Origin: Flavobacterium nitratireducens
GTDB taxonomy: Bacteria; Bacteroidota; Bacteroidia; Flavobacteriales; Flavobacteriaceae
Assembly: GCF_029625335.1 (NCBI RefSeq)
Contig: NZ_CP121111.1
Coordinates: 2,418,001-2,482,000 of the forward strand
Length of the DNA: 64,000 bases
Direction: 5' to 3'
A model generated the notes under the pieces. That model made no database searches. It was not told the DNA's origin and was given only the letters and a program-made list of their open reading frames with translations. A program made the position numbers and the translations under genes. Shown here one piece after another: positions 16,409 to 60,258 of this stretch (its first letter is position 1; each line of letters begins with the position of its first letter).

Positions 16409-17334
16409 ATGGATAAAATAGATATCCTTTGTGTTGGAGAAGTGCTAGTAGATTTTATTGGACATCAGGAAGGTGTTCTTATTAATGAGACTAGAGATTA
16501 TCATAGGTATTTAGGGGGGTCTCCTACTAATGTAGCAATGAATTCAACACGATTAGGTTTAAATACTATAATGGTTGCAACGGTAGGTAATGATGGTTTT
16601 GGTTCCTACATTACAGAACGATTAACTAGTGTTGGTATAAACACAAGCCACATTAAAATATTAGATGATAAATCGACTAGTGTAATTTTTGTTTCAAGAT
16701 CTCAGGGGACGCCAGATTTTATTCCATATCGTGCAGCAGATTGTTGCATTTATGAAGAACAAATTTCAAGCGAAATATTATCTAATACTACTATATTTCA
16801 TACCACTTGTTTCGCCTTAAGCAAAAATCCTGCACAAAAAACAATTTTAAAAAAGGCTCAAGAAGCTTATGATTTAGGCTGTAAATTAAGTATTGATGTA
16901 AATTATGCCAGAAAGCTTTGGAAGAGTCAAAAAAAGCGTTCAAGGTTATCAAAACCTATTGCCAATTCAATCCTTTAATAAAAATTAGTGAAGATGATAT
17001 GTTGCGTCTTTTTGAAAAGGAACTTCCTCATGAAGAGATATTTCAATTTTTTCACGATCAGGGAGTAGATACTGTTTGCTTAACTTTAGGTAGTAAAGGA
17101 GTAAAATTATCTCAAAAAGGAAAAGAAGTGATACAATTGCCAGCTATTAAAATAGATAGAGTTATGGACTCCACCGGAGCGGGTGATGCTTTTTGGTCTG
17201 GATTTTTATTTGCGTATATCAAGAAAAAAACAATTAATGAATGTTTGGATATCGCGTTAAAATTAGCAGCTTTAAAACTGCAAAATGTTGGTCGATTACC
17301 GGATAACATCAATATCTTATCTAAACTTTTATAA
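16409..17334 (+). CDS. PfkB-family sugar kinase (probable fructokinase), frameshifted in this sequence
   Basis: Two adjacent frames together give a complete ribokinase/PfkB-type kinase of about 308 residues, the usual length. The 5' part (from ATG 16409) has DILCVGEVLVDFIGH, GGSPTNVAMNSTRLG and LSIDVNYARKLW. The 3' part has DTVCLTLGSKGVKL and the PfkB signature DSTGAGDAFWSGFLFAY with the catalytic Asp in GAGD. The frame changes at about 16919-16921; adding one G there (TGG GAA GAG) restores NYARKLW-EESKKAF. The likely role is ATP-dependent phosphorylation of fructose, fitting the sucrose-phosphorylase-like enzyme encoded 6 bp later. Either the kinase is a recent pseudogene or the base loss is a sequencing error, as seems likely elsewhere in the window. 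Fructose versus another hexose is inferred. Confidence 0.8.
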
Positions 17335-17340
17335 AAAACA

Positions 17341-19077
17341 ATGCAACAGAATAATAAAAATATCATTAATGGAGTAATGCTTAATGCATATCCAGACAGT
17401 ATTGGTGAAAAATTTAGTGATACAGTTGACATGCTTAAAATGAACGAGTTTAAGGATGTATTTTCTTTGTTATACGTATTGCCTACCTTTTTTAATAGTG
17501 ATTTAGACAGAGGTTTTTCTATTATTGATTACAATATAAATAAGGATTTAGTAAACCCAAAAGATTTAAAGGATTTAAATGAGCTTAATATAAAGCTGAA
17601 ATTTGATATTGTATTAAACCACCTTTCTGTAGCTTCACCTCAATTTAAAGATTTATTACAACACGGAAATGAATCTAAATTCAAAGATTTTTTTATCAAT
17701 TGGAATGAGTTTTGGGAGGGAAATGGAATAAAAAATGATGATGGAATTGTAATTCCTGAACCAGAGTTTCTAGATAAACTGTTTATGAGAAAGTCAGGTT
17801 TGCCAATATTAAAAGTGCGTTTTCCTGATGGTACAGAACAACCTTATTGGAATACTTTTTATCAACAAGTAACTTATAATCCAATTACTGTTCAGGATTT
17901 ACAAAATATAAAAGGCTTAACTGAAGCGCAAAGTTTATTTATAGTTACTAAAATTAATGAAGCGATAGCCCATAATCAGGATTTTACGACCGTTAATTTT
18001 GAAGATTGCAGTGCTTTAAAACAAGAAATTGTAGCAATTGTAGAACAAAAGCGTTCTTACTTAGGACAAATGGATGTCAATGCTACATCGCCTTTAGTAT
18101 GGGATTTCTATGAAGAAACATTAAAAAAATTAAATGGTTACGGTTGTAATATTCTTCGCTTAGATGCTTTTGCTTATTTGCATAAACAAGTAGGGGAATC
18201 TAATTTTTTTAATAAACCGGGAACTTGGGAATATTTAGAGCGTATCAAACAAATAGCGCAAAAAAACGACTTGATACTGTTACCAGAAATTCATGCGGAG
18301 TATGGTTTGCATTTACATGATGAAGTGGCCAATGAAGGATATTATATCTATGACTTTTTCTTACCTGGTCTAACGATACATACAATTGAAAATAAAACAA
18401 GTAAAGCGTTATTAAGTTGGGCTAAAGAAATTGTAGCTAAAGGATACAAAACAGTAAACATGCTTGGTTGTCATGATGGAATTCCTGTTCTGGATTTGAA
18501 AGGCAAGGAGGTAAATGGAGTTTACAACAAAGGATTGTTGGAAGATGCTGAGATAGAAAGTATCATGAACAAAATCATGGAACGTGGTGGTCGCGTAAAA
18601 AATCTTTACGATCCATCAGGAAAGAAGATTTCTTATTATCAAATAAATGCGACATTTTTTAGTGCTCTTGGTGAAGAGGAACAAAAGTTACTTCTTGCCA
18701 GAGTCATTCAAATGTTTATGCCGGGAATACCACAGGTTTGGTATCTGGATATTTTTGCGGGTAAAAATAATTATGAAGCGGCAGATAATGGTGGTAGTGC
18801 AGGTCATAAGGAAATTAATCGTACCACATTATCAATGCTCGACATTGAGCGAGGGTTAGAAACAGAAGTTGTAAAAAAACAATTAGAAATTATTCGTTTA
18901 AGAAATACCTCAAATGCATTTTTAGGTCAAGTAGAAATAAATGATACTATTGACGAAGTTATAGATATCAAATGGGTAAATGGTGATGCAGTTGTACACT
19001 TAAAGGCAAATCTTCAAACTACTGGTTTTACAATACAGCATACAGAGAATGGGATCACAAATAATATGAGTTTTTGA
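17341..19077 (+). CDS. GH13 subfamily 18 sucrose-phosphorylase-like enzyme
   Basis: This 578-residue cytoplasmic protein has no signal peptide. The (beta/alpha)8 barrel carries the GH13_18 catalytic triad. The nucleophile is Asp275 in NILRLDAFAY, the acid/base is Glu316 in LLPEIHAEYG, and the transition-state Asp379 is in GCHDGIPVLD. Other family blocks are FDIVLNHLS, ATSPLVWDFYEETL, YQINATFFSALG and RVIQMFMPGIPQVWYL. Such enzymes convert sucrose and phosphate to glucose 1-phosphate and fructose. Relatives act on sucrose 6-phosphate, glucosylglycerol or glucosylglycerate, so the acceptor is not certain. The flanking PfkB kinase and the sucrose-type transporter support sucrose. The protein is longer than the roughly 490-500-residue classical phosphorylases, mostly through an insertion at about residues 135-240. 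Confidence 0.85.
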   Translation: MQQNNKNIINGVMLNAYPDSIGEKFSDTVDMLKMNEFKDVFSLLYVLPTFFNSDLDRGFSIIDYNINKDLVNPKDLKDLNELNIKLKFDIVLNHLSVASPQFKDLLQHGNESKFKDFFINWNEFWEGNGIKNDDGIVIPEPEFLDKLFMRKSGLPILKVRFPDGTEQPYWNTFYQQVTYNPITVQDLQNIKGLTEAQSLFIVTKINEAIAHNQDFTTVNFEDCSALKQEIVAIVEQKRSYLGQMDVNATSPLVWDFYEETLKKLNGYGCNILRLDAFAYLHKQVGESNFFNKPGTWEYLERIKQIAQKNDLILLPEIHAEYGLHLHDEVANEGYYIYDFFLPGLTIHTIENKTSKALLSWAKEIVAKGYKTVNMLGCHDGIPVLDLKGKEVNGVYNKGLLEDAEIESIMNKIMERGGRVKNLYDPSGKKISYYQINATFFSALGEEEQKLLLARVIQMFMPGIPQVWYLDIFAGKNNYEAADNGGSAGHKEINRTTLSMLDIERGLETEVVKKQLEIIRLRNTSNAFLGQVEINDTIDEVIDIKWVNGDAVVHLKANLQTTGFTIQHTENGITNNMSF

Positions 19078-19163
19078 ATCTCATAATGTATCCAAAATTT
19101 AAAATTGCAAGTCGGTAGTGGCTGCATAAAATATTGAAATCATAATTATAAAAAGGATTAAAA

Positions 19164-20411
19164 ATGAAGAAAAGCACCGTTAAGATTGCTATGTATCTCA
19201 ATTATTTTGTGTTTGCAATTTTGCTAAATAGCGTAGGAATTGTAATTCTAAAGTCTCAGGCTAATTATGGGGTCGATGAATTGCAAGCCAGTATTCTGGA
19301 AGCATTTAAGGATTTACCTATAGCAATTGTGTCTTTTTTGGTGGCTTCTTTTTTGCCTAGAATTGGATACAAAAGAGCCATGCTTATTGGTTTGGGATTA
19401 GTTGCTTTAGCGTGTGTTAGTATGTATTTTGGAAATTCTTTTACAGCTGCTAAAATTCTTTTTGCAACGGTTGGTGTTTCTTTTGCTTTGATTAAAGTTT
19501 CTGTTTATTCTCTTATAGGAACAGTAACAGAGAGTCAAAAAGAACACAATAGTTTGATGAGCAGTATTGAAGGGGTTTTTATGATAGGGATTGCATTAGC
19601 GTATTTCTTGTTTCCAGCTTTCAATTCAGATACGAATCCTGATTCATGGTTAAATGTGTATTGGTTATTGGCAGGGATTTCATTGGTTTCTTTTGTGTTT
19701 TTGTTTTTTACAAAATTTGAGAATCAGATGGAAATTCCAGGAGTGAATTTAGCAGATGATTTTGCTCAAATGTTGAAACTATTGGCTAAGCTTTTAACGA
19801 TTGTTTTTGTAATTAGTGCTTTTTTGTTTGTAATGATTGAACAAGGAATCATGTCTTGGTTACCTACTTTTAATAGTAAAGTGCTGCATCTTCCGCAGAA
19901 TATAAGTATCATGATGGCAAGTATATTGGCAGTGTCCTTGGCAATAGGACGGCTTCTTGCCGGTGTTTTGACACAAAAAATCAACTGGATTTGGGTGTTG
20001 AGTTTTTGCATTCTAATTGCAATGTTGATTGTGATTTTTATTCTCCCTAAAGCTGTTGGATTAGAAGTGAAAGAAATTAATTCACTTGGTGATATTCCTT
20101 TGATAGGATTCGCATTTCCATTAGTAGGACTATTTATTGCGCCTATTTACCCACTTTTAAATTCGGTTGTTTTGAGCGCTTTACCACAAAAAATGCATAG
20201 TTCCATGACTGGTTTGATTGTGGTTTTTTCTGCCTTGGGAGGGACTCTCGGTTCCAGAATTATTGGTTATTTGTTTAAAAATGAAGGTCCGGAAAATGCA
20301 TTTTATTATACGTTGATTCCGATGTCCTTGTTGTTTGTTTCTTTTTTTATTCTAAAAAAACTTACTTCAAATAATACTCAGGAATTGAAGTTTAAAAACT
20401 TTAGTCATTAA
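19164..20411 (+). CDS. MFS transporter, FucP-like sugar permease
   Basis: This 415-residue protein has about 12 hydrophobic segments and belongs to the major facilitator superfamily. The loop between helices 2 and 3 contains LPRIGYKRAMLIGLGL, the MFS motif A position, and helix 4 has GVSFALIKVSVYSLIG. Overall it resembles fucose/glucose permease-type carriers rather than the SLC45-type carrier encoded 2.8 kb upstream. It may import a monosaccharide or disaccharide; the following trehalase gene (19 bp away) suggests trehalose or glucose. The 86-bp gap before it has no clear terminator, so it is probably in the same operon. Confidence 0.75.
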   Translation: MKKSTVKIAMYLNYFVFAILLNSVGIVILKSQANYGVDELQASILEAFKDLPIAIVSFLVASFLPRIGYKRAMLIGLGLVALACVSMYFGNSFTAAKILFATVGVSFALIKVSVYSLIGTVTESQKEHNSLMSSIEGVFMIGIALAYFLFPAFNSDTNPDSWLNVYWLLAGISLVSFVFLFFTKFENQMEIPGVNLADDFAQMLKLLAKLLTIVFVISAFLFVMIEQGIMSWLPTFNSKVLHLPQNISIMMASILAVSLAIGRLLAGVLTQKINWIWVLSFCILIAMLIVIFILPKAVGLEVKEINSLGDIPLIGFAFPLVGLFIAPIYPLLNSVVLSALPQKMHSSMTGLIVVFSALGGTLGSRIIGYLFKNEGPENAFYYTLIPMSLLFVSFFILKKLTSNNTQELKFKNFSH

Positions 20412-20430
20412 TAGTAATTAGTGTTTCAAA

Positions 20431-22299: not shown

Positions 22300-22373
22300 T
22301 CGTTTTTTTTGTAATAAGCTTAAGGTTTGTATGTTATTTTTTTTTAAATTTATATTTCTTTAAATTTTTTAAT

Positions 22374-22808: not shown

Positions 22809-22849
22809 TTTAAAGAAAATGAATATTTTAAATCAGATATATTGTATAG

Positions 22850-22872
22850 CCACTCTTTTGAGTGGTTTTTTT
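22850..22872 (+). terminator. Rho-independent terminator after the CBS-domain gene
   Basis: A 6-bp stem CCACTC/GAGTGG (22850-22855 and 22860-22865) with a TTTT loop is followed by seven T residues. It lies 41 bases after the stop codon. Confidence 0.85.
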
Positions 22873-23129
22873 TGGGGAATTATTTTCCTTGTTTTTTTAA
22901 AAGAATTAATAAAATGTTAACTATTTAAGTTAAGACTTCTATCTTTGTATATAAGATAAAACTGCTATTCTATTTTTTTAGAATTAAAAAGATGTAATAG
23001 TAAAAAAATGTTTCAATGCAAAGGAAGTACACGTTTGTAACAAAGTGTTGTTATGAATAACTTGTTTTTAAGTTGCTAAGGAGAGGCTAAAACAATCTTA
23101 ATTAAACTTTTTCAAAAAATAAACATTAG
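22873..23129. other. AT-rich leader region of ruvA, no gene
   Basis: Gene-free stretch between the CBS-gene terminator and ruvA. A TATCTTTG box at 22940-22947 fits the Bacteroidota -7 element, but no TTG is found at the right distance. If that promoter is real, the ruvA leader is about 175 nt, which is unusually long. No tRNA and no recognisable riboswitch was seen; a weak GTTATGAATAAC hairpin lies near 23052-23063. Confidence 0.5.
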
Positions 23130-23732: not shown

Positions 23733-26700
23733 ATGCATAAAATTTGTATTGTTTGGGCAGTTTTATTATGCGGTTTTGTGTCTTTGGCTCAGGTTAATGA
23801 ACCAGTTCAGGATACAACAAAAAGAAGATATTCAATAGGGAAAGTTCAAATGAAGGACCCTAAGAGTATCCTTTCTGCTTATACTTATGACCCAAAAACA
23901 GATAGATATATTTACACCCATTCGGTAGATGGATTTTCTATCAAGTACCCCATTATACTAACTCCAAAAGAATACGAAAATTTAGTTTTGAAAGAATCTA
24001 TGAAGGATTATTTCAAAAAAAATCGGATGCAATTGATGGGAAGAAAAAAGGTAGTGAAGCTGATAAAAAAGATTTATTACCCAGATATTATGTCAATTCG
24101 GGATTGTTTGAATCTATTTTTGGTAGTAATACAATTGATGTAAAGCCTACCGGTTCCGTTGAAATGGATATGGGTGTTCGATATACCAAACAGGACAATC
24201 CTTCCTTTTCTCCCAGAAACAGGTCTAATCTTGCTTTTGATTTTGATCAAAGAATTAGCATGAGTTTGATGGGGAAAGTGGGAACCCGACTGAATGTAAA
24301 TGCTAATTATGACACCCAATCTACATTTGCTTTTCAAAACTTACTGAAATTAGAATATGCGCCAACTGAAGATGATATTATTCAAAAAATTGAAGTTGGA
24401 AATGTGAGTATGCCTTTAAACAGTTCTTTAATTAGAGGAGCACAGAGTTTGTTTGGTGTCAAGGCACAGTTACAATTTGGTAAAACAATGGTAACAGGTG
24501 TTTTCTCTGAACAAAAATCCCAGACTAAGACAGTGGTTTCACAAGGAGGAGGAACTATTCAGGATTTTGATCTCTATGCTTTGGATTATGATAACGACAG
24601 ACACTTTTTCTTATCGCAATACTTTAGAAATCGATACGATGCGGCTTTAAAAAATTATCCATTTATTGATAGTAGAGTACAAATTACAAGAATTGAGGTT
24701 TGGGTAACTAATAAGCAAACACGTCTTAATACCACGGCTAATAATTTAAGAAACGTAATCGCAATCCAGGATTTAGGAGAAGCACAGTTAACGGGTTTAA
24801 ATGATAATGAAGTGGTGGTTTTAAATCCTTCGACAGGAATGTTTAATACTCCCGCTGATACTCCATCAGATAATGCAAATAATAAATATGATCCTGCAAA
24901 AATTGGACTCGCAGATGGTTATTTAAAAACAGATATTCGTGAAATTGCTACCGCTAGTGCAGGTTTTAAAGTGTCTGTAAGTGAAGGACAAGACTATTCA
25001 AAACTGGAGAATGCTCGTAAATTAACGACTAATGAATTTACCTATCATCCACAATTAGGATATATTTCTCTGCAACAAAGATTGTCGAATGATGAAATTT
25101 TGGCTGTAGCTTATGAATATACAATAGGTGATCAGGTTTATCAAGTGGGAGAGTTTGGTAATGATGGCGTGGATGCAACGCTTGTTACCGGAACACCACA
25201 ATCAACGCAGGCTGTTGTGACTCAAAGTTTGGTGTTAAAAATGTTGAAAAGTAATCTGACTAATGTTTCTAATCCTGTGTGGAATTTGATGATGAAGAAT
25301 ATTTATCAAATCCCTGGTGCTTACCAAATCAAACAAGAAGATTTTAGATTTAATATCCTTTATACTGATCCTTCACCTTTAAATTATATAACTCCCGTAA
25401 CAGGAAATCCATTTCCCGTGAATCCTTCTCCGGATGATAAGGTGGCCGAAACTCCATTGTTGAATGTGTTTAATTTAGATAAGTTAAATTATAACAATGA
25501 TCGTCAAACGGGTGGTGATGGGTTTTTTGATTTTGTTTCCGGATTGACAATGGATACTCAAAATGGACGTATCATTTTTACTACTAAAGAACCTTTTGGG
25601 GAGTTGTTATTTAATAAGTTGACTACTAATACAGTTGAAGATTATAGTAATACAGCTACATATAATCCTAACCAAAGTAAATACGTTTTTGGAGCCATGT
25701 ATCGAAAAACACAGGCCAAGGCATTAGAAGATAGTGATAAAAATAAATTTTTATTAAGAGGAAAATACAAATCATCCAGTGGTGATGGTATTCCTATTGG
25801 AGCATTCAATGTGCCTCAGGGTTCGGTTGTAGTAACCGCCGGAGGAAGAGTTTTAGTTGAAGGAGTAGATTATAGTGTTAACTATCAATTGGGGAGAGTT
25901 CAGATTCTGGATCCATCATTACAAGCTTCCAATACGCCTATTAATGTTTCTTTGGAAAATAATTCCATTTTTGGTCAACAAACTAGACGATTTATGGGAG
26001 TGAATGTAGAACATAAATTTTCGGATAATTTTACATTAGGTGGAACCTTTTTGAAGATGACTGAAAAACCATTTACCCAAAAATCGAATTATGGTCAGGA
26101 ATCTGTAAACAATACTATTTTTGGATTCAATACTAATTTCTCAACTGAGGTTCCTTTTTTTACAAGATTAGTAAATATGCTTCCTAATGTTGATACTGAT
26201 GTGCCATCAAATTTATCCGTTAGAGGTGAAATTGCGTTCTTAAAACCTGATACCCCGAAAGCAGATCAATTTCAAGGACAATCAACATTGTATGTAGATG
26301 ATTTTGAAGGTACTCAATCATCTATCGATATGCGTTCGGCTTATGCCTGGAGTTTAGCTTCAACACCTACTAATCAAGATGCTAAGTTTCCAACGGCGTA
26401 TGAGTTTAATGGAACGTCGAATGATTTGTCCTATGGGCATAAAAGAGCAAAATTAGCTTGGTACACTATAGATCCTGTTTTTTATGTTCAAAAACCCTCT
26501 GGCGTTTCAAATGATGATATTTCTTTGAACTCAACCAGAAGAATTTATAGCAAAGAGTTGTATCCAACATTGGATATAGCTCAGGGACAAACACAGGTAA
26601 TTAATACCCTGGATTTAACTTATTTCCCATCCGAAAGAGGACCGTATAATAATAATTCAAATTTTGGTTTAACTCCTAAAGAGAATTACGGAGGAATTAT

Positions 26701-29700
26701 GCGTTCGTTAAGCTCTACTAATTTCGAACAGGGAAATGTGGAATACATTCAGTTTTGGGTATTAGATCCTTATGTGGGTAATGGAAGTACAACGCCTACT
26801 AATACAGGTAAAATTTATTTCAATCTTGGGGAAATTTCAGAAGATATTTTGAAAGACGGAAGGAAACAGTATGAAAATGGATTAGGACCTGATCAAATTT
26901 TAGTAAATCCAAGACCAATTTGGGGAGATGTTCCTGCTTCCCAATCATTAATTTATGCTTTTGATGCTAATGCTGATAGTAGAAAAAATCAAGATGTTGG
27001 TTTAGATGGTTTATCTAATAATGGAGAGGCAACAGTATATACTAATTTTGCCGGAGAATCAGATCCGGCAGCGGATGATTATACTTATTATTTGAATACT
27101 TCAGGTGGAATTAAAGAGCGTTATAAAAATTATAACGGAGTTGATGGTAACTCGGCTGTTGATATCAATGATCCTAATAGGGGAGCCTCCACCGTTCCTG
27201 ATGTTGAAGATATCAACAGAGATAATACAATGAATACTATTAATGCTTATTATGAATACAGTATTGATATGAAGCCGGGGATGCAAGTAGGGGAAAATTA
27301 TGTTACTGATATTCGTGTAGTAAATGATGAGCCTTTACCAAATGGAGAAATGATTAATGCCAGATGGATCCAATTTAAAATACCGGTTTCACAACCGCAA
27401 AATGTTATTGGGAATATTAGTGATTTTAGATCGATTCGTTTTATGAGAATGTTCATGACAGGTTTTGATGAAGAAGTAACCATGCGTTTTGGAGCATTGG
27501 ATTTGGTTAGAGGAGAATGGAGAAGATATACGAGTACACTAGATCCTACTGATACAAATGTGGATAATGATAATACAGAGTTAGATATTACAGCTGTTAA
27601 TATTCAGGAAAATGACACCAGATGTCCTGTTAATTATATAACACCGCCAGGTGTTACAAGAGAACAATTGTATAATAACAATACCTTGATTAATCAAAAT
27701 GAGCAATCATTATCGTTAAGAGTTGCAGGAGATGGTTTAGAAATTGGAGATTCAAGAGCGGTTTTTAAAAATGTAAGTGTAGATATGCGTCAGTTTAAAA
27801 AACTGCAAATGTTTTTACATGCTGAATCTTTAAAAGGAGAGATTCCTTTAACAGATAATCAAATGGTTGGATTTATTCGTTTTGGTAATGATTTTACGCA
27901 AAATTTCTATCAGGTTGAAATTCCATTAAAAGTTACGGCTGCAACGGATGGTAATTGTAAATATACAGCAGAAGAAGTTTGGCCTGAAGCCAATGAAATC
28001 GATTTGTCTTTAGCATTACTGACTAAGTTAAAAGTCAAATCCATGAGTGTAGATGCAAGTTCACTGCCTTTGGAAGGTGTTTATTATTTAGATGATGATA
28101 CTAATGTTCCCGGGAATCCTAATGAACGTGATGGTGATAGTAAATTGAAATTAGGAATAAAAGGAAATCCTAATTTTGGAATGGTGCGTACTTTGATGGT
28201 GGGGGTAAAAAGCAATGAAACTCATCAGAAAATTAAAGGAGAAGTTTGGTTCAATGAACTTCGTTTGGCTGAGATGGACAATCACGGAGGGATGGCTGCT
28301 GTATTGAATGTGGATACAAATTTTGCCGATTTTGCCACTGTTTCTGCAACAGGGAAAATGAGTACGGTAGGTTTTGGAACCATTGAACAAGGACCAAATG
28401 AGAGAAGTAGAGAAGATATTCAGCAGTATAATATTGTAACCAATATTAATTTGGGGAAACTGCTACCAAACAAATGGGGTGTTAATTTGCCTTTCAATTA
28501 TAGTGTAGGTGAAGAAACTATTAAACCGGAGTACGATCCTTTTAATCAAGATATCAAGTTGAAACAACTTTTAAGTGAAACGGATGATGCAGATGTTAGA
28601 GCTAATTTAAGAAATCGCGCTATTGATTATACGAAACGTACAAGTATTAATTTTATTGGGGTAAGAAAACAAAGAGGAGCCGAACAAAAGCCTCATATTT
28701 ATGACCCAGAAAATTTTACTTTTTCACAATCGTTTAATAAAGTAGAACGACATGATTATGAAATTGAAGATTATTTGGATCAACAGGCAAGTACGTCAGT
28801 AGATTATGCGTACAGTTTTGATAATAAACCGGTAGAGCCTTTCAAGAAAACAAAATTCATGAAAAAAAGTAGCTATTGGAAGTTGTTGAGTGATTTTAAT
28901 TTTAATTACTTACCTTCTAATGTTACTTTTAATACCAATATTAACAGACAATACAATCGTCAACAATTTAGACAGGTGGATAATGTTCCTGGTTTAGAAT
29001 TACAACCTTTGTACCGAAGAAATTTTGGATTTAATTATAACTATGGTTTCAATTTTAATTTGACTAAATCATTGAAGTTTAGTTATGCAGCAACCACTAA
29101 TAATTTGGTTAAAAATTATTTGAATGATCTTGACCAACCTATAGAAGATTTTACAATTTGGGATAGCTATTGGGACATTGGCGATCCTAACCGTCATACA
29201 CAACAGGTGGTTTTAAATTATGATCTTCCAATTAATAAAATACCGTTGTTTAGTTTTGTAAAAGCAAATTATTCTTACACAGGAGATTATAGTTGGCAAA
29301 AATCAGCAAATGCACTTTCGGAAATTATAGTTGATGGAGTTAATTATAATTTAGGAAATACAGTTCAAAATGCACGAACTAATGCCTTGAATGCGAGTTT
29401 CAATATGGAAACCTTGTATAAGTATTTAGGCTTGACTAAATCAAAAGCTCCTGTGAGAAGACCTCCAGCAGTAGTCCCTAAACCAGGACAAAAAATAGCT
29501 GCTGCGCCTAAACCGCAAGCACAATCAAATGAATTTGTGGATGGATTGTTAGGGGTATTAACGAGTATTAAAAATGTTCAAATCAATTATACTGAAAATA
29601 GCGGAACTCTCTTACCTGGATATACGCCAAGTATAGGTTTCTTAGGTTCTTCAAGACCTTCATTAGGTTTTATTTTTGGAAGTCAAGATGATGTGCGTTA

Positions 29701-30967
29701 TGAAGCGGCTAAAAATGGATGGTTGACTAATTACCAAGAGTTTAATCAAAATTATACTCAGGTAACCAATAAGGTGTTGCGAGCCACAGCTAACGTGGAT
29801 TTATTTCCAGATTTCAAAATTGATTTGAATATGGATCGATCGTATTCGAATAATTTTTCAGAACAATATGATATTGCTTCTGATGGGACTTACAATTCGC
29901 GTTCACCCTACAATTACGGTATGTTCTCTATTTCGACTGTGTTGATTAAGACTGCTTTTTCTAAAAGTGATGAGTTTTCTTCAGTTGCTTTTGATGAATT
30001 TAGAAACAATCGTTTGATTATTGCTAATCGCTTAGCCGAAGATTATTATGGGGCAGGAAATCCAATTCCAAGATATGGTGATAGTGCTAATCCGATACCA
30101 ACTGATCCAATAGACCCAAACAATGATCCTGAACAAAAGAAAAGAGAGATATATACGAATAATCAAGGTTATCCAATAGGTTTTGGAAAGAACAGTCAGT
30201 CGGTATTATTGCCAGCATTTGTAGCTGCTTATACTGGTTCGGATGCGACGAGTGTATCCAAAGGTATTTTTAGAAGTTTCCCAATTCCAAACTGGAATGT
30301 AAAATACAATGGCTTGATGCGTTATGAGGTATTCAAGAAAACGTTCCGACGTTTTTCTTTACAACACGCCTATAGAGCCTCTTATACCATCAATCAATTT
30401 AGATCTAATTTTGATTTTGACAAAGATCCTTCAGGAGTAGACGATAGTGGTAATTTTTATAATAAGACATTAATTTCTAATGTCAATTTGGTGGAGCAAT
30501 TTAGCCCTTTAGTTAGATTGGATTTTGAGTTGAAAAATTCGCTAAAAGTGCTTACTGAGATTAAAAAAGACCGTGCTTTGTCCATGAGTTTTGATAATAA
30601 CTTATTGACGGAAGTAAAAGGGGTTGAATACATAGTTGGTTTAGGATATCGTTTCAAAAATGTCGTTTTTTCGTCAAGATTGGCCGATAATCCAACAGGT
30701 GTTATTAAAGGTGATATTAATTTGAAAGCCGATTTGTCTTATCGTAACAATCAAACTATAGTTCGCTATTTGGATTACGATAACAATCAGTTGGGAGGAG
30801 GACAAAATTTATGGTCATTAAAAGTCACAGCTGATTATTCGTTTAGTAAAAACCTTACGGCTATTTTTTACTATGATCATTCTTTTTCTCAAGCGGTAAT
30901 TTCAACTTCTTATCCGATTACTAATATTCGTTCCGGATTTACTCTTAGATATAATTTTGGTAATTAA
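23733..30967 (+). CDS. sprA: Gliding motility/type IX secretion translocon protein SprA, frameshifted near the N-terminus in this sequence
   Basis: SprA is the giant outer-membrane barrel that forms the type IX secretion translocon. The ATG at 23733 begins a signal peptide (MHKICIVWAVLLCGFVSLAQ) and continues with RRYSIGKVQMKDPKSILSAY and VDGFSIKYPIILTPKEYENL. The frame then breaks at an A8 run (24015-24022); adding one A restores YFKKKSDAIDGKKKG and joins the long downstream frame. The repaired protein has 2411 residues, close to the roughly 2400 expected for SprA. Characteristic blocks include GLFESIFGSNTIDVKPTGSV, NRSNLAFDFDQRISMSLMGK and LYVDDFEGTQSSIDM, and the end is GFTLRYNFGN. Without the lost base the large frame would start at an internal codon and lack the signal peptide, so it could not be exported. 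ruvA lies upstream and gcvH downstream, as in other flavobacteria. Confidence 0.95.
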
Positions 30968-31050: not shown

Positions 31051-31431
31051 ATGAGCATACCAGCAAATTTAAAATACACTAAAGACCACGAATGGGTAAG
31101 TATAGAGGGTGATGTTGCTACTGTAGGAATCACACATTTTGCTCAAAAAGAGTTGGGTGATATCGTTTATGTTGAAGTGGAAACTTTAGATCAAACACTT
31201 GATAAAGATGAAGTTTTTGGTACTGTAGAAGCTGTAAAAACAGTTTCTGATTTGTTTTTACCATTATCTGGTGAAATTATCGAATTCAATACTGGTTTAG
31301 AAGACGCTCCAGAATTAGTAAATTCTGATCCTTATGGAGATGGATGGATGATTAAAGTTAAAATTTCTGATGCATCCGAAATCGATAGTTTGTTAAGTAG
31401 TGAAGCTTATCAAGAACTTATCGGTGCTTAA
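31051..31431 (+). CDS. gcvH: Glycine cleavage system H protein
   Basis: This 126-residue lipoyl carrier shuttles the aminomethyl group between the P, T and L proteins of glycine cleavage. The lipoylation Lys sits in the hairpin [18 protein letters not shown]. The N-terminal [20 protein letters not shown] and the ending DGWMIKVKI are family blocks. Length is typical. A TACATTTG box at 31005-31012 fits a -7 element for its own promoter. Its last eight bases overlap the proposed GTG start of the VanZ-like gene. Confidence 0.97.
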
Positions 31432-31812
31432 GAAAATTAGTTTAGGGGCTGCTATTTTTTGGGCAGTCATTATTTTGTATTTCTGCCTAAAAAAATAAGT
31501 GAGTTACCTGAAATTAAGATTGCTTACATTGATAAATACATACATGCTTTCTTTTATTTTGTATTTAGTGTTTTGTGGTTTTATGCCTTGCGTTTTTATT
31601 TAAAAACACAAAAAAGAACCAATCTTTTAGGGATAGTATTTATGATGTCGCTATTATTTGGATCGGCAATAGAATTATTTCAAACCTATTTTACAGCTTA
31701 CAGAAGTGGCGATTTAACCGATGTAATCGCTAATACAGCGGGATCTTTACTGGCGTTAATAGCTATTTGTTTATTAGATAAGAATGACTTTTTAAGTAAA
31801 ATTGAGATATAA
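31424..31812 (+). CDS. VanZ-like small membrane protein, frameshifted in this sequence
   Basis: Reading from GTG 31424, which overlaps the gcvH end, gives [20 protein letters not shown], a first membrane helix. The frame is lost at an A7 run (31489-31495) and resumes with [20 protein letters not shown] in the next frame. One extra A makes a single 129-residue protein with four membrane helices and the VanZ-family block [17 protein letters not shown]. It also has [30 protein letters not shown]. VanZ-like proteins are of unknown function outside teicoplanin resistance. gcvH followed by a VanZ-like gene is common next to sprA in flavobacteria. Choosing the internal TTG at 31459 would remove helix 1, so the repaired form is preferred. 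Confidence 0.75.
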
Positions 31813-43612: not shown

Positions 43613-44909
43613 ATGTCAAAAAAGAATATTTATATCCTAATTGCTGTTTTTGTTGTTGTAATAGGAGTGTTGCTTTACTTAGGTAAAAAAGGGATTCTAG
43701 GTAATAAAACGGATGCAAAAGAAATTGAAATAGCCAAAATAGTTCCAATGACTATTGTGGAAACGGTTTCGGCGACTGGAAAAATCCAACCTGAAATTGA
43801 AGTTAAGATAGCTTCGATGGTTTCAGGAGAAATTATTGCTTTGCCAGTCAAAGAAGGTCAGGTTGTTAAAAAAGGCGACTTGCTAGTAAAAATCAATCCT
43901 GATTTGTATTTGTCAAGCTTGAATAGAACAGTGGCAGGATTATCGGGGTCAAAAGCAGGCTTAACCCAAAGTGAAGCACAGTTCAAAGAAACAAAATCAA
44001 GTTATGAACGAAATAAGGTTTTGTTTGAAAAAGGTATAATTTCCAAATCAGATTGGGATAAATCGGTTGCTTCGTTTGAGGTAGCTAAAGCGACGACGTC
44101 AATCTGCTTATTATAGTGTTCAGAGTGCTTCTGCTTCGGTTAATGAAGCAAAAGATAATTTGGGAAGAACCTCTATTTATGCTCCTGCCGATGGTACTAT
44201 TTCGGTATTAAATGTTGAGTTGGGCGAGAGAGTATTGGGTACACAGCAAATGGCTGGAACCGAATTGATGCGTGTAGCCAATTTGAACAATATGGAAGTG
44301 GAAGTAGATGTCAACGAAAATGATATTGTCAAAATTAAAGAAGGTGACTTGGCTGATGTAGAAGTAGATGCTTATTTGAAGAAGAAATTCAAAGGAGTAG
44401 TAACCAGTATTTCTAATTCGGCTAGTTCTACCTTAACAGCTGATCAAGTAACTAATTTTAAAGTAAAGGTTCGAATAGTAAAAGAATCTTATCAGGATTT
44501 ATTAGTGGGTAAACCAGCAACCTATTCTCCATTTAGACCAGGAATGACAGCCACAGTTGATATTATTACAAAAACAAAAAGAAATGTTTTGGCTGTGCCT
44601 ATTAGTGCAGTTGTAGTTAAATCAGATACGACAGCAGTTTCTATCTCGGATAAAAAAATACCCGATCCGAAAGAAGATAAAAATGTAGTTCCTAAAAATG
44701 AGAAAAAATTAGAATGTGTTTTCTTAAAAGTAGGCGACAAAGCTAAAATTAAAATTATAAAAACAGGTATTCAAGATGATACTAATATTGAGGTTTTAAG
44801 TGGTGTTAAAAATGGAGATGTAGTGATTACTGGGCCTTATACAACAGTGAGTAAAGAGTTGAATTCTGGTGATATGGTAAAACTCAAATCCAAAGAATCG
44901 GAGAAATAA
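43613..44909 (+). CDS. HlyD/MacA-like periplasmic adaptor protein, frameshifted in this sequence
   Basis: Two frames together give a membrane-fusion protein of about 431 residues. The first part has an N-terminal anchor (IYILIAVFVVVIGVLLYLG), then ETVSATGKIQPEIEVKIASM, the lipoyl half VKEGQVVKKGDLLVKINPD and the first helical hairpin. The second part continues QSAYYSVQSASASVNEAKDN, then GRTSIYAPADGTISVLNVE and the beta-barrel and membrane-proximal domains. The shift lies at about 44097-44100. Removing one base, or adding two, joins AKATT to QSAYYS. Unlike the other shifts this is not in a homopolymer run. It partners the TolC protein encoded 6 bp upstream; the tsaB gene follows. Confidence 0.85.
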
Positions 44910-45723: not shown

Positions 45724-45737
45724 AAGTTGAGTTTGTT

Positions 45738-50291: not shown

Positions 50292-51517
50292 TTAATTTAT
50301 AGTTTTTAAATTTCCTTCTCTAGCTTTTTTGATAGAGTCTCTTTGTTGAATAATTTTTAATCTTCTTTCTTCTAATTCTTTTTTGCGATCTTCAATAATT
50401 TTTTTCTTTCTTCAATAGTTTTAGCTTTTGCCTCTTCTATTTTTTGTTTTGCTAAATCGGCTTCTGTTGTTTTATTGGTATCGTTTGTTTTTAATACCTC
50501 CGTTTTAGCGCTGTTAGTACTTTCGGCTTTCTTAGCTGTTTCAGAAACAGTAGTTGTTTTTTTAGCTTCTCTTTCGTTTATAATTTGTTGTCTTCTTTCT
50601 TCTAAGGCTTTTTTTCGATCTTCTATTGTTTTGTTTCTTTCTTCAATTGCTTTTGCTTTAGCATCGGCAGCTTTTTGTTTGGCTAATTCAGCTTCAGTTG
50701 GAGAGTCAGATGTTGCAACTTTTTGAGTCTCATTTTTAGCTGATTCAGAAACCGTGCCATTTTTTTTAGCAGCTCTTTCGTCTAGGTGTTTCTGTCTTCT
50801 CTCTTCGTACTCTTTTTTCTTTTGTTCTACGGCTGCTTTTCTGTCGGCCATGATTTTTTCTCTCGTAGCCTTTCTCTCGTCTAATATTTTTTGTCTTTCA
50901 GCAAGTTCAGGATTATTGTTTATTGCATCTTCTTTACTTTCTTTTTCCTGTTCTGCAGCTAATTCTTTTTTACTTAATTGCTCTCTTTTTTCTGTTCGGT
51001 TGATAATTCGCAATACTTGTTCACTTACATCATATCTTTTATCTGCAAAAAGCAAGCTTAAATCGGATGATTTATCAAATATGAAATCAAATTTTTTAGC
51101 TTCTGCAATGTCTTGAACTGCTGTAAAAACTTGGTCTTGAATAGGTTTTACTAATAAAGCCTTTTGGGTCATTAACAAGCCATTTGGACCAAATCTTTTT
51201 TGTTGCAATTCTAATAAATCATTTTCTAAAAAACTAATTTCTGTTTCACGTTCTTCAATTAATGATTTTGTTAAAAGCGGTTTTTCTGCAGAAAGCGCAT
51301 CTTTGATTTTTTTGATTTCTACTTTCTTTGCTTCAATTTCTTGTTTCCATTTTTCGGCTTTCTCTTCCAGTAGAGCATTTGATTCTTTATAACTATTTAC
51401 ATTTTCCAAGATATACTCCATATCAATAAAACCCACTCGATTACCTCGGTTGGTTTGTGCACAAATACTATTGAAGGTAATTTGTACAAGTAATAGAAAT
51501 AAAAAATGTTTTCTCAT
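50292..51517 (-). CDS. Long OmpH/Skp-family chaperone with a charged repetitive tail, frameshifted near the 3' end
   Basis: Residues about 1-190 form a Skp-like domain with signal peptide (MRKHFLFLLLVQITFNSICA) and mature start RVGFIDMEYILENVNSY, with FDFIFDKSSDLSLLFADKRY later. Residues about 190-400 are a highly charged helical region of repeats (EERNKTIEDRKKALEERRQQ, AKTIEERKK). The frame stops early at a T7/A7 run (50399-50405). Adding one base continues the repeat as KKIIEDRKKELEERRLKIIQ and ends at 50292, giving about 408 residues. The continuation keeps the repeat, so it was once coding. It lies 35 bp after bamA and 21 bp before the short ompH. Confidence 0.85.
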
Positions 51518-54967: not shown

Positions 54968-54971
54968 TTTT

Positions 54972-55661
54972 TTATTCTGCACAATAGCAAGGTTTTTCTC
55001 CAAAGGTATAAGTAACAGTTATCCCTGAGAAGACATACCAATCATTATTATTTAAATTTCCAAAACGCAAAACACTCAAATTGGTGTCTTTAGGATTACT
55101 TCCGTCCAGATTATCTGTATAGGTGTAGCGTGCTCCTACTTCTGCTCCCAGTACCAAGCTTCTTGAGATATTTGTTTTTATTCCCAGAATCATAGGTATT
55201 GCGATGGCGTTTTTTCCTCTGTTTTTTATTGTTTCTCCTAATTCGACATATAAATCGTCATACGCGAAAAAATTTATTCCCGAAGCCACATACGGTGTAA
55301 ATTTGTGGGCTAATGTATGAAGATTAAAATCAAAAAAATTGAATTCAAGGCCTAAAGATAGTTCTTTTATGCTATTTTCAAAATGATATCCTCTCAGTCT
55401 TCTGCTTGGTTCTTCTGAATTAAAGTCGTCAGCACTTATTGTAGATTGAGTATAGGAAATTCTCCAAGCATGTCTAGGACTTCGATTCCATTTGTATACT
55501 ATTCCAAAAGCAGGCTCATTTGGAGCAATATAGGTTGTGTTTCCTACGTCGCCTATATAGTTGCTTCCTCCTAAAAAAACACCTATTTCATGAATCTGAG
55601 CTTGTGAATAGATACTAAGAAATAAACAAACTAGTATGCTTAAATTTTTTTTCATTTTCAT
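54972..55661 (-). CDS. DUF6089-like outer-membrane beta-barrel protein
   Basis: This protein of about 229 residues starts at MKMKKNLSILVCLFLSIYSQ, a signal peptide; a longer start at 55703 is less likely. The mature part opens AQIHEIGVFLGGSNYIGDVG, the hallmark of the flavobacterial family encoded before uppS, and has alternating strands with aromatic ends (PRHAWRISYTQSTISADDFN, VLGAEVGARYTYTDNLDGSN). It probably forms a small outer-membrane barrel; function is unknown. uppS starts 4 bp after its stop codon. Confidence 0.85.
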   Translation of the reverse strand: MKMKKNLSILVCLFLSIYSQAQIHEIGVFLGGSNYIGDVGNTTYIAPNEPAFGIVYKWNRSPRHAWRISYTQSTISADDFNSEEPSRRLRGYHFENSIKELSLGLEFNFFDFNLHTLAHKFTPYVASGINFFAYDDLYVELGETIKNRGKNAIAIPMILGIKTNISRSLVLGAEVGARYTYTDNLDGSNPKDTNLSVLRFGNLNNNDWYVFSGITVTYTFGEKPCYCAE

Positions 55662-55820
55662 CGAAAATTGCTTGCAAATATAATAATTATCAATACCAAA
55701 CAATGCGCATTAAAATAAATGTACTTTTTTTAAAAAAATAGTTGATTTATTCTAATGAGAATCTTTCCATTAAAACGGAAAACTTCTATTGTATTGTGTG
55801 GTGTTGGGAATAATAAAAAT

Positions 55821-56704
55821 TTAATTTCTTTTATCTTCTCCCCAAAGCAATTTACTTCGTAATGTTTTTAAGAAAGTTTCATTTGGAATTTCTACCATAT
55901 TAATTTGGAACGGTGTCTTTTTAACGGTTAATATGGTTTCGTTTTTAACGGAAGTGATTCGGGAGTCTAATGAAACTAAATAGTTTTCTTCACGACCAGA
56001 TACTTTTAAAGTAATTTCTGTTTCGTCTGGGATTACTAATGGGCGAGCATTAAGGTTGTGTGGAGCAATAGGTGTAATTACTAAGCTTTTTACATCAGGA
56101 GTTAAAATAGGTCCGCCACAACTTAACGAGTAACCCGTTGAACCAGTAGGAGTAGAGATAATTAAGCCATCAGCCCAATATGAATTTAAAATTTCGCCAT
56201 TTAAGTAGGTTTCAATCGTAATCATCGATGTAGTGTCCTTACGGCTCACTGAAACTTCGTTCATCGCAAAATTGATGTCCTTTAATGCCTCATTTTCTGG
56301 TGAAGAAGTCAAGCTTAAAAGCGTTCTTTTAGACAGACTGTATTTTTCGTCAATAACCAGTTGCAGAAATTCGTCAATATTTTCTTTTTGAACTGTTGCT
56401 AAAAAACCTAATCTACCTGCATTGATTCCTAAAATTGGGATTCCAGAATCTCGAACCAGTGTAGCTGCTCTTAAAATGGTTCCGTCGCCCCCAATGCTTA
56501 GTAGCATCGAAAAACTAGCGTCTAGTTCGGTATGTGAGGAAAAGGTTTTGTATTCCTTTTCGATAATTTTTTTTCTTGAATTAATGCTAAAAAATTAGCT
56601 TCGATTACAATTTCGATATTTCTTTTATTAAAAAATACGAAGATGTCTTTTATGATAGGTTCTGTACTATTTTGATAATATTGACCGTAAATGGCTATTT
56701 TCAT
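55821..56704 (-). CDS. nadK: NAD kinase, frameshifted in this sequence
   Basis: NAD kinase makes NADP from NAD and ATP or polyphosphate and is essential in most bacteria tested. ATG 56704 gives MKIAIYGQYYQNSTEPIIKD and runs to about residue 45, where the frame is lost at a T8 run (A8 on the coding strand, 56567-56574). One extra A continues KKIIEKEYKTFSSHTELDAS into LLSIGGDGTILRAATLVRDS, giving about 294 residues. The catalytic GGDGT, then NAGRLGFL and TPTGSTGYSLSCGGPI are intact. It begins 5 bp after the CBS-domain gene. Because the gene should be indispensable, the shift is probably a sequence error or is suppressed. Confidence 0.93.
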
Positions 56705-56709
56705 TGAAA

Positions 56710-57366
56710 TTACATGTTTAGGTATTTGTCCAAATAGTCGGAACGTTCTTTTAGGTTAGCGATATAAGAATCTTCGTGGTGTTCTGATATGATTTCGTAA
56801 TTGTATCTTCTGAAAGTTTGTATAATTTCATTAATAGCACCAGAACTTATTTTGATAGTAACTTCTACGCTACTAATATCCGATTCAGAGATGAATACTC
56901 CTAATAGCTTACCATTATTGCTTTCCACAATTTGAGCGATTTGGCTCATAGAATAATCCAGAATTCCTTTTCTTACTTTCACAACGGCTCCTTGTTCTTT
57001 GATAAAAGGGGTTTGGTTAAGGAAAATAATAATGTCTTCTAGTTCATAGTAACCTACGTATTTATTGTTTTCGTCTAATATCGGAATTAAATTAGAATGG
57101 TTTTTGGCAAAAACCTCTAAAACTTCAAGCCAAAGCGCATTTGTACTGATAAAAAAAGTTTCTAAACTGTATTTGTAGTCGGCTACTTTTTTCTGTTCTT
57201 CAAAAGTTTCTACATCTTCTGCAGAAATACTACCAATATAAATACCGTCTTCAGTTACTGGGAAATGAGAAAAATTGAAATCTCCTAAAAAATCTCTCAC
57301 CACCGCAATAGATTCTTGGCTATCAATAGGTTTAAAATCAGCTGTTATGTAGTTTGTAATTTCCAT
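56710..57366 (-). CDS. CBS-domain protein with C-terminal ACT-like region
   Basis: In this 218-residue protein, residues about 1-130 hold two CBS motifs (SQESIAVVRDFLGDFNFSHF with IYIGSISAEDV, and ALWLEVLEVFAKNHSNLIPI with YVGYYELEDIIIFL). Residues about 140-210 (LDYSMSQIAQIVESNNGKLL, SVEVTIKISSGAINEIIQTF) look like an ACT-type ligand-binding fold. It is encoded 5 bp before nadK and divergent from pdxJ, an arrangement widespread in flavobacteria, so it may sense adenine nucleotides in connection with NADP supply. That link is inference. Confidence 0.88.
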   Translation of the reverse strand: MEITNYITADFKPIDSQESIAVVRDFLGDFNFSHFPVTEDGIYIGSISAEDVETFEEQKKVADYKYSLETFFISTNALWLEVLEVFAKNHSNLIPILDENNKYVGYYELEDIIIFLNQTPFIKEQGAVVKVRKGILDYSMSQIAQIVESNNGKLLGVFISESDISSVEVTIKISSGAINEIIQTFRRYNYEIISEHHEDSYIANLKERSDYLDKYLNM

Positions 57367-57434
57367 TTTGTGTGAGTACTCAATTTTTATGCAAAATAAT
57401 CAAAAAAAGGCAAAAACCCCTAGCTTTTACTTTG

Positions 57435-57442
57435 TATTTTTG
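57435..57442 (+). promoter_or_regulatory. Candidate -7 box of pdxJ
   Basis: TATTTTTG matches TAnnTTTG and lies 40 bases before the pdxJ ATG. No TTG is at the ideal spacing. Confidence 0.35.
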
Positions 57443-57481
57443 CTGCCAAAATATTGTTTTTCGTAATCAAAAATTGTTCCA

Positions 57482-58195
57482 ATGACAAAGTTAAGTGTAA
57501 ACATCAATAAAATAGCTACTTTACGTAATGCTCGTGGCGGTAATGTGCCTGATTTATTAAAAGTAGCGACCGATATTCAGAAATTTGGAGGAGAAGGAAT
57601 CACCATTCATCCTCGTCCTGATGAGCGACACATTCGTTACCAGGATGCCCGCGATTTGAAATCGATTGTTTATACCGAATATAATATCGAAGGAAATCCG
57701 CAACATAATTTTGTGGATTTGGTTTTAGAATGCAAACCAGACCAAGTGACTCTAGTCCCAGACGCTATTGGAGCGATTACTTCATCAGCAGGTTGGGATA
57801 CGATTCAGTATCAGGATTATTTATCTGAAATGATTCAGGAATTTCAACGCAACGGAATCCGTACTTCTATCTTTGTGGATCCAGTTTTAGAAATGATTGA
57901 AGGAGCTAAGAAAACAGGAACAGACAGAATTGAATTGTATACAGAGTCGTTTGCGCACCAATACAGTTTGGGAAATGAAAAGGGAATTACTCCTTACGTG
58001 GAAGCAGCTGTTTTGGCAAACGAATTAGGTTTGGGAATCAATGCCGGACACGATTTAAGTTTGGATAATATTCAGTTTTTCAAACAAAATATTCCTGGAT
58101 TATTAGAAGTTTCTATTGGTCATGCATTGATTTCAGAAGCCTTGTATTTAGGATTGGATAACGTTGTCAATATGTATTTGCGAAAATTAAAATAA
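57482..58195 (+). CDS. pdxJ: Pyridoxine 5'-phosphate synthase
   Basis: This 237-residue TIM-barrel enzyme condenses 1-deoxyxylulose 5-phosphate with 3-amino-2-oxopropyl phosphate to make vitamin B6 phosphate. Diagnostic blocks are LSVNINKIATLRNARGGNVP, GITIHPRPDERHIRYQDARD, QVTLVPD, RIELYTESFA and GLGINAGHDLSLDN with IGHALISEALYLGL at the end. Length is typical. It is divergent from the CBS-nadK operon. Confidence 0.97.
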   Translation: MTKLSVNINKIATLRNARGGNVPDLLKVATDIQKFGGEGITIHPRPDERHIRYQDARDLKSIVYTEYNIEGNPQHNFVDLVLECKPDQVTLVPDAIGAITSSAGWDTIQYQDYLSEMIQEFQRNGIRTSIFVDPVLEMIEGAKKTGTDRIELYTESFAHQYSLGNEKGITPYVEAAVLANELGLGINAGHDLSLDNIQFFKQNIPGLLEVSIGHALISEALYLGLDNVVNMYLRKLK

Positions 58196-58232
58196 TATAA
58201 TTGGTTGGAAGATTTGGTTGCCTAGCTATTTT

Positions 58233-58270
58233 CTGCAATCTAAAATCTGCAATCTAAAATCTAAAATCTA
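58233..58270 (+). repeat. Short tandem repeat directly before the hydrolase start codon
   Basis: Two perfect 14-bp copies of CTGCAATCTAAAAT (58233-58246, 58247-58260) are followed by a partial copy CTAAAAT and CTA, ending one base before the ATG at 58271. Copy number could vary and alter spacing of the ribosome-binding region, which lacks a usual AGGA. Confidence 0.8.
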
Positions 58271-59032
58271 ATGCTTTATTCAAAAATAGAAGGGGAGGGA
58301 AAACCATTTTTAATTATACATGGATTTCTTGGAATGTCCGACAATTGGAAAACCTTAGGACAGCAATTTGTCGAAGATGGTTTTCAGGTTCACATGCTAG
58401 ATATGCGCAATCATGGTCGTAGTTTTCAATCGGATGAATTTAGTTATGAGTTGATGGTTAAGGATGTTTATGGCTATTGTCAGGAACATTCATTGAAAAC
58501 CATTCATATTCTAGGTCATTCTATGGGAGGAAAAATCGCTATGCTGTTCGCAACTCGTTATCCAGAAATGGTCGATAAATTAATAGTTGCCGATATTGGA
58601 CCGAAATATTATGCGCCACATCATCAGACTATTTTAGCGGCTTTGAATGCGGTAGATTTTTCAATTAAGCCAAGTCGTGCACAAGTTGAAGCGACAATTG
58701 GTGAGTATATTCACGATTTTGGCACCAAACAATTTTTGCTGAAAAATTTATATTGGGTGGAACCTGGACAATTGGCTTTCCGATTCAATTTGGCAGTTTT
58801 CAATGAAAAAATAGAAGAGATTGGAGTTACATTGCCTGAGGAGTTAGTGTTTGAAAAACCAACTCTTTTCATACGTGGAGGAAATTCAAATTATATTTTA
58901 GATTCTGACATTGAAAATATTGCGATGCATTTTCCAATGATGAAGTTAGAAACGATTCCTAATGCTGGACACTGGCTCCATGCCGAAAATCCGTCTTTGT
59001 TTTATCAAATGGTTATTTCTTTTTTGAATTAA
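58271..59032 (+). CDS. Alpha/beta-fold hydrolase (YbfF-like esterase)
   Basis: In this 253-residue cytoplasmic protein the nucleophile Ser is in the elbow ILGHSMGGKIAMLFA and the oxyanion region is FLIIHGFLGMSDNWKTL. The conserved DMRNHGRSFQSDEFSY matches the YbfF/epoxide-hydrolase-like group, and the catalytic His is in IPNAGHWLHAENP. The substrate is unknown; family members are acyl-CoA or short-chain ester hydrolases. It follows pdxJ after 75 bp that include a tandem repeat, and a terminator ends it. Confidence 0.9.
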   Translation: MLYSKIEGEGKPFLIIHGFLGMSDNWKTLGQQFVEDGFQVHMLDMRNHGRSFQSDEFSYELMVKDVYGYCQEHSLKTIHILGHSMGGKIAMLFATRYPEMVDKLIVADIGPKYYAPHHQTILAALNAVDFSIKPSRAQVEATIGEYIHDFGTKQFLLKNLYWVEPGQLAFRFNLAVFNEKIEEIGVTLPEELVFEKPTLFIRGGNSNYILDSDIENIAMHFPMMKLETIPNAGHWLHAENPSLFYQMVISFLN

Positions 59033-59048
59033 AAGTCGATTAAAATAG

Positions 59049-59078
59049 AAACAGTAACATTGGGTTGCTGTTTTTTTG
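59049..59078 (+). terminator. Probable terminator after the alpha/beta hydrolase gene
   Basis: ACAGTAAC (59051-59058) pairs with GTTGCTGT (59064-59071, one G-U) with a 5-nt loop, followed by a T run. Confidence 0.75.
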
Positions 59079-59085
59079 TTTGAAT

Positions 59086-59117
59086 TTGGATAAATGTGTA
59101 AAAAACACTTATGTTTG
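59086..59117 (+). promoter_or_regulatory. Promoter of the GH43 gene pair
   Basis: TTG (59086-59088) and TATGTTTG (59110-59117) are spaced by 21 bp, a full match to the Bacteroidota promoter, about 38 bases before the ATG. Confidence 0.65.
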
Positions 59118-59155
59118 TTGTTTGCATTAAAAACATACAAACCAACTAAAATAAT

Positions 59156-60258
59156 ATGAAACCACATCTTTTTTCAATTCAAAAAAATAAATTAAACAAA
59201 CAACTTGTTTTATTGTTACTCTCTGTATTCCTGTTTTCTGCCTGCAAAACGACTAAAGACTCCACACAGAAATCGTTAAAAGAAAAGTTGAGTGCTTATT
59301 TAATGGTGTATTTTAAAGATGATACCCACAGTTTGTATTTTGCATTAAGTAATGATAGTTATACGATTTCCGATGTGAATAATGGAAAACCAGTTATTGC
59401 AGGTGATACTATTGTAGAGCAAAAAGGAATTCGTGATCCTTATATCATGCGTGGCAATGATGGTTATTTTATATGGCAATGACTGATTTGCATATTTATG
59501 GAAAACAAAAAGGCTATCGAGATACCGAATGGGAACGTCCTGGAGATAAATATGACTGGGGAAATAACCGTGATTTAGTTTTGATGAAATCAAAAGATTT
59601 AATTCATTGGACGCATTCTATTTTAGACATTGATAAGATGTATCCGGAATGGAACGTAGGTTGTGTTTGGGCTCCTGAATTGATTTTTGACGAAGCCAAA
59701 GGTAAAATCATGATATATTTCACGATGCGAAAAGGAAAAACGAAGTTGTATTATGCTTATATGAATGATGCTTTTACTGCTTTGGAATCTACTCCCGAAA
59801 TTTTATTTGAATATCCAGATAGTAGTAAACAAATTTTAGATGCTGATATTACTAAATTGCCTGATGGGAGATTTTGTATGATGTATGTGGCACAGGAAAA
59901 TCCGGGTGGAATTAAAATTGCTTTTTCAGACAAGGTCAATTAGGGTTATGTGTACCAACCAGAACAAATTGATTTTGAGAAAAAATCATGCGAAGCACCT
60001 AATGTTTTTAAACGTTTAAGTGATGATAAATGGGTGTTGATGTACGATATTTTTAGTGTCAATCCGCATAATTTCGGTTTTGCTGAGACAACTGATTTTA
60101 AAACGTTTAACAATTTGGGACATTTTGACGAAGGGGTAATGAAACGTACTAATTTTTCGGTTCAAAAGCATGGTTCGGTTATTCATTTAACTAAAAAGGA
60201 AGCGGAACGTTTGGCTAAACATTGGGGAATGAATTTTACTCCTAAAAATACCAAATAG
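59156..60258 (+). pseudogene. GH43-like glycosidase lipoprotein gene disrupted by a frameshift and a nonsense codon
   Basis: The reconstructed protein of about 367 residues has a lipoprotein signal (lipobox FSAC) and a five-bladed GH43-type propeller. It contains GIRDPYIMRGNDG, WNVGCVWAPELIFDEA and a C-terminal KHGSVIHLTKKEAERLAKHW. Two lesions are visible. A missing T in the run 59467-59470 breaks the frame after DGYF (one T restores YFYMAMTDLHIYG). An in-frame TAG at 59941-59943 interrupts DKVN-GYVYQPEQID. It is a paralogue of the N-terminal half of the next gene. Two independent lesions make true decay more likely here than elsewhere in the window, although the frameshift alone could be a sequencing error. 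Confidence 0.8.

Follow-up and report, generated by a model that had tools for sequence, protein, structure and literature searches.

Indels in homopolymers have been described for long-read assemblies in the excerpts available of PMC12007338 and PMC9262707, the former also describing gains that are not linked to a homopolymer. Excerpts of PMC5009743 treat bacterial slippage at runs of 9 As or Ts, and excerpts of PMC3017870 mention that genes of Blochmannia contain coding polyA tracts of 9 or more. Here we analyzed positions 2418001-2482000 of the Flavobacterium genome G000 (the window, meaning the whole stretch of 64,000 nucleotides), in which seven genes, among them nadK and sprA, are as written each split between two frames, as seen in the table of open reading frames (ORFs) and in the sequence. 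We conclude that most of these breaks, and of those found elsewhere in the genome, are almost certainly residual consensus errors, as they occur in long-read assemblies without accurate polishing. Sequencing error is the very probable origin of most of the cuts, because the genes of relatives and, for two genes, also near-identical proteins of other assemblies are whole, and we infer both the cause (base calling or consensus) and the long-read platform from the assembled sequence. The genome itself is a single contig of 2,992,352 bases with a completeness rating of 99.98%, and the protein adjoining nadK has 91% identity to its Flavobacterium glycines counterpart (83-91% across the ten best named loci). 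Relatives such as F. glycines are environmental species.

Alignment showed that the orthologues of all seven genes run through in one frame in relatives, compared with which six of the genes are one base short and the hlyD-like gene is one base long. The initial annotation had reported seven genes split by one-base changes, and this was borne out by the ORFs, the sequence, the one-frame relatives and the 45 breaks found in G000 against none in relatives (see below). Six of the places it had given also held on the sequence. These are the A8 run at 24015-24022 in sprA, coding for the outer membrane translocon of the type IX secretion system (T9SS; 23733..30967, forward strand), the A7 run at 31489-31495 in the VanZ-like gene (31430..31812, forward), the T7 run at 50399-50405 near the 3' end of the long ompH-like gene (50303..51517, reverse), the T8 run at 56567-56574 in nadK, coding for NAD kinase (55821..56704, reverse), and the T4 run at 59467-59470 in the GH43-like gene (59156..60258, forward), each one base short, as well as ~44093-44100 in the HlyD/RND-type periplasmic adaptor gene (43613..44909, forward), which is net one base long there in the absence of a homopolymer. 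The break in the pfkB-like sugar kinase gene (two ORFs, 16409..17334, forward) had to be moved: it had been placed at 16919-16921 with a G to be added, but the relative's protein tracks the first frame beyond this point up to the A7 run at 16929-16935 (scan position 16932), where the gene is net one base short and the missing base is not a G. Because the pfkB-like loss falls in this run, all six losses of the window lie in A/T runs, and not five as had been claimed. Nor is each gene broken only once, since the GH43-like gene additionally carries an in-frame TAG at 59941-59943.

The intact orthologues support most of the gene names. For sprA the orthologue in the relative G005 passes TIGR04189, for the HlyD-like adaptor the G005 orthologue matches TIGR01730, for nadK the orthologue passes NF002521, and the intact 315-aa orthologue of the pfkB-like gene in a further relative, G010, matched 5-dehydro-2-deoxygluconokinase/fructokinase-like models below their cut-off. 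The VanZ-like gene, with an intact 126-aa orthologue in G005, had no NCBIfam match and keeps the name of the initial annotation, and the 413-aa orthologue of the ompH-like gene in G010 had no NCBIfam match at 1e-10. In most same-genus genomes sprA is an intact single frame; megablast of the window sprA ORF against plasmids gave no match. In another same-genus genome sprA was matched as two pieces with one internal stop each (G011:C12:422078-429000), perhaps a broken copy. The nadK gene is unbroken in 80 out of 80 named loci, in 79 over its full length and in one as far as its contig reaches, and its A run is nine long in all of the ten named loci closest to G000 (L003-L012). Elsewhere in G000, a 339-aa frame contains a further, weak match to the NAD-kinase family at C1:769427-769552, just over the cut-off (26.4 bits).

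The breaks are not confined to the window. We scanned 744 kb of G000 (window included) along with 731 kb of G005 and 760 kb of G010. Translated ORFs of each genome were searched against the other genomes for frame changes, and a break was kept if its net offset was at most 2 and its score gain at least 60. In G000 this gave 49 distinct raw frame changes, of which 45 were kept, in 43 reference genes and 503.9 kb of comparable sequence (the cover by G005 and G010, counted by a rule looser than the scan's own). The resulting rate is 8.9 kept breaks per 100 kb, and the kept breaks are distributed across the 744 kb with 2 to 10 per 93-kb eighth. By comparison, G005 had no raw event in 205 kb with G010 as reference, and G010 had two raw and no kept events in 203 kb with G005 as reference; the Poisson chance of zero breaks in 205 kb at the G000 rate is 1e-8. 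The number of 45 is a lower bound, with at least three aligned breaks (VanZ-like, ompH and a GH3-family gene) outside it. The strict scan detected five of the seven window breaks and thus undercounts, because those in the VanZ-like and ompH genes were missed, so that the lack of an eighth window break in the scan is weak evidence of there being none. Furthermore, four of the 49 raw events were discarded for exceeding a net offset of 2 and falling short of a gain of 60, including event 623044, the GH3-family gene, whose alignment shows a T run to be one base short.

When the broken G000 ORFs served as queries, three raw events were obtained in G005 (two passing) and five in G010 (all passing), and two of the former and three of the latter sit at partners of G000 breaks. 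At G010:C1 ~817105 (position 437105 of the L131-L186 concatenation) a G010 gene shifts frame and its G000 orthologue is whole. Judging from the sequence this is likely a break in G010 itself, and because this kept event looks true the relatives are not wholly free of breaks. At G000:C1 ~2154160-2155560 two neighbours that are separate in G010 are fused in one 466-aa ORF (event 450302), probably one more frame break.

Independent of genes, the lengths of A/T runs point in the same direction. Noncoding A/T runs of exactly nine, relative to those of seven and eight together, numbered 9/346 in G000, compared with 37/289 in G005, 21/278 in G010 and 52/389 in the 80 named loci, which makes them 3-5 times rarer than in relatives (Fisher p 5e-6 against G005, 0.008 against G010 and 4e-7 against the 80 loci). 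This shortage is predicted neither by gene decay nor by RNA rescue. For noncoding eights versus sevens, G000 did not differ from G005 (p 0.72) or G010 (p 0.28) and differed from the 80 loci (p 0.006). In coding sequence, eights were low versus sevens in G000 (p 2e-4 against G005, 2e-4 against G010 and 4e-8 against the 80 loci), and nines were low against G005 (p 0.03) and the 80 loci (p 0.01).

By offset, the kept breaks comprise 30 of -1, 12 of +1, two of +2 and one of -2, that is 31 losses and 14 gains. All 31 losses were placed in runs of A (23) or of T (8) that are 4-8 long as written, an approximate assignment in which the longest nearby run was chosen automatically; 27 of them are at runs of at least five, 17 at runs of 7 or 8, and three at runs of 8. 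Within the covered sequence, the share of A/T runs broken increased with their length, being 3/6 for runs of nine, 14/89 for eight, 3/441 for seven, 7/1372 for six and 4/3407 for five. On our reading, A/T runs of eight and nine are frequently written one base short, with a smaller class of spurious gains placed outside runs, and the genes of the living strain are most likely intact. Inspection of the gain sites by eye, for which no statistical test was made, revealed no shared motif, a few sites looking palindromic.

The identity of the genes hit adds to this. NCBIfam models matched by the intact orthologues of broken genes include translation initiation factor IF-2, dihydroorotase, class 1 fructose-bisphosphatase, PstB, SprA, NAD kinase, an RND-type adaptor, RpoN, PdxA, FeoB, DNA polymerase IV and L-glutamate gamma-semialdehyde dehydrogenase. 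A class I fumarate hydratase (best models below cut-off) carries one loss and one gain 388 bases apart, and a 259-aa orthologue at L173 matched no NCBIfam family at 1e-90. IF-2 and NAD kinase are indispensable proteins. In addition, intact copies like those expected from the same species were sought by protein searches with the C-terminal piece of NadK, the HlyD-like protein and SprA (best 120 matches listed each). For NadK, six proteins of the best 120 listed are 99-100% identical, all of them 294 aa in length; the longest contigs belonging to these proteins range from 1,432 to 1,699,233 bases, none matching G000 in size. One of them, P0002, which lies on another contig, holds the N-terminal piece exactly (residues 1-43) and agrees with the C-terminal frame throughout from residue 45 onwards. 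For the HlyD-like protein there was one such match among the best 120 listed, P0121 (431 aa), likewise on another contig, containing the N-terminal piece in residues 1-161 except 127 and the C-terminal frame from 162 to the end. Together, the reading as sequencing errors is well supported because core genes are hit, intact copies of NadK and the HlyD-like protein exist and noncoding runs of nine are scarce.

Nevertheless, several observations weigh against this reading or narrow it. Ten of the 14 gains lack a run of five or more, their runs being at most 3 long, and undercalling alone is therefore an inadequate description. The systematic homopolymer undercalling proposed in the initial annotation stands insofar as wrong calls and not biology are well supported, and fails insofar as undercalling explains only a part of the breaks. 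The shortage of coding nines in G000 was not significant against G010 (p 0.32), and G000 shows no scarcity of noncoding runs of ten or more, with nine in 71 kb (elsewhere six in 65 kb of G005, two in 58 kb of G010 and nine in 112 kb of the 80 loci), so that the loss is not a simple length ceiling. Among the 45 kept breaks, those at concatenated positions 1655, 18575 and 631797 look weak by eye. Intact copies resembling the same species cover two of the seven genes, NadK and HlyD-like, the proteins concerned (P0001-P0006 and P0121) having been judged as such by sequence identity. SprA gave no such match: the closest of the 120 matches listed has 94% identity. Finally, the GH43-like gene looks partly real as a damaged gene.

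Considering that frames are clean on both sides of the breaks, that core genes are affected and that 27 out of 31 losses are at A/T runs of five or more, the frameshifts might be real and RNA polymerase slippage on poly-A/T might yield enough full-length mRNA, in the way proposed for Buchnera and Blochmannia. We consider this exceedingly improbable, because the runs at the losses measure 4-8 as written, none of the kept losses lying in a run of nine or more, because the gains make up 14 of the 45 breaks and ten of them offer no run to slip on, and because slippage would not remove noncoding runs of nine. Moreover, the nadK break occurs in none of the 80 named loci, the closest of the near-identical NadK proteins is whole, and six such proteins are unbroken. 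The suggestion of the initial annotation that the strain relies on poly-A slippage hence found no support. Hardly any more credible is the broader view that the bases are right and that ~240 coding frameshifts genome-wide (extrapolated from ~9 per 100 kb), including those in IF-2 and NAD kinase, are tolerated because slippage or ribosomal frameshifting occurs unusually often at short runs and even where there is no run. Programmed frameshifting conserved in the clade would be in line with the conservation of the nine-long nadK run in the ten nearest named loci. Its likelihood is practically nil, as nadK is in one frame in relatives with no break in any of the 80 loci, and as the sprA of G005 and G010 is in one frame and has a shorter, interrupted run at the break site.

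A strain that is truly losing genes through a mutator state or relaxed selection would account for losses that climb steeply with run length, as under replication slippage, for the two of the 43 broken reference genes that have two kept breaks, and for the combination of frame break and TAG in the GH43-like gene. Yet the frames of mutS (870 aa) and mutL (643 aa) are open and without stops in G000, showing no loss of mismatch repair and arguing against a mutator; in 41 of the 43 reference genes concerned a single break was kept, with generally high flanking identity; the genes for IF-2 and NAD kinase, which cannot be lost, are among those broken; and NadK and the HlyD-like protein are whole in near-identical strains. 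We therefore regard such decay as very unlikely. Slippage rescue, mutator or decay, and conserved programmed frameshifting were all rejected as general explanations after testing, and a biology behind the frameshifts is very probably absent. Overall, the interpretation given in the initial annotation is partly supported.

A mixed situation deserves more attention, in which most breaks are errors, with a true recent pseudogene in the GH43-like gene and perhaps also in a PAS/histidine kinase gene outside the window; we consider this quite conceivable, with a chance somewhat short of even. GH43 is the only window gene with two lesions found, and at the site of its TAG (59941) a sense codon stands in nine out of nine aligned relatives. 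F. pokkalii (L007) shares the short run of four Ts and has a 257-aa ORF, the other eight aligned relatives keeping frame length there, and a true pseudogene would perhaps have arisen independently in G000 and F. pokkalii. The PAS/histidine kinase gene has two kept breaks and ~64% identity to the relative's. On the other hand, both GH43 lesions might be errors, and the C-terminal part of the gene is still ~90% identical to F. glycines at the protein level. The gene may accordingly be a true recent pseudogene within error noise or a gene with two errors. Beside GH43 in F. undicola (L008, 6023-7096) lies a 357-aa ORF, which corresponds to 638-644 aa in the other relatives listed and is perhaps a broken gene. 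An extra check of the window with the unfiltered ORFs of 24 loci, covering 22.4 kb, gave 22 places with in-frame stops in at least two references; spurious reference ORFs may lie behind many of these places.

A genome rated 99.98% complete can still contain ~9 apparent frame breaks per 100 kb. At such a rate, claims of gene loss drawn from G000, for example for gliding and T9SS, NAD kinase or GH43, have to await accurate reads. A scarcity of noncoding runs of nine relative to relatives offers a simple hint of such assemblies that requires no reads.

In comparison with known systems, the frameshifts of Blochmannia and Buchnera for which slippage correction has been proposed, as far as the excerpts of PMC3017870 and PMC5009743 go, share with G000 that core genes are split at A/T runs and are otherwise in frame. 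G000 differs from them in that its runs are 4-8 long, a third of its breaks are gains and most gain sites lack a run, in that near-identical strains are intact, and in that it is a 3-Mb Flavobacterium genome and not a reduced endosymbiont genome. With the indel errors of long-read assemblies, as described in the excerpts of PMC12007338 and PMC9262707, G000 shares single-base homopolymer losses, gains often located off homopolymers, one lesion per core gene and high completeness scores, and no feature tested in G000 differs from what these excerpts describe.

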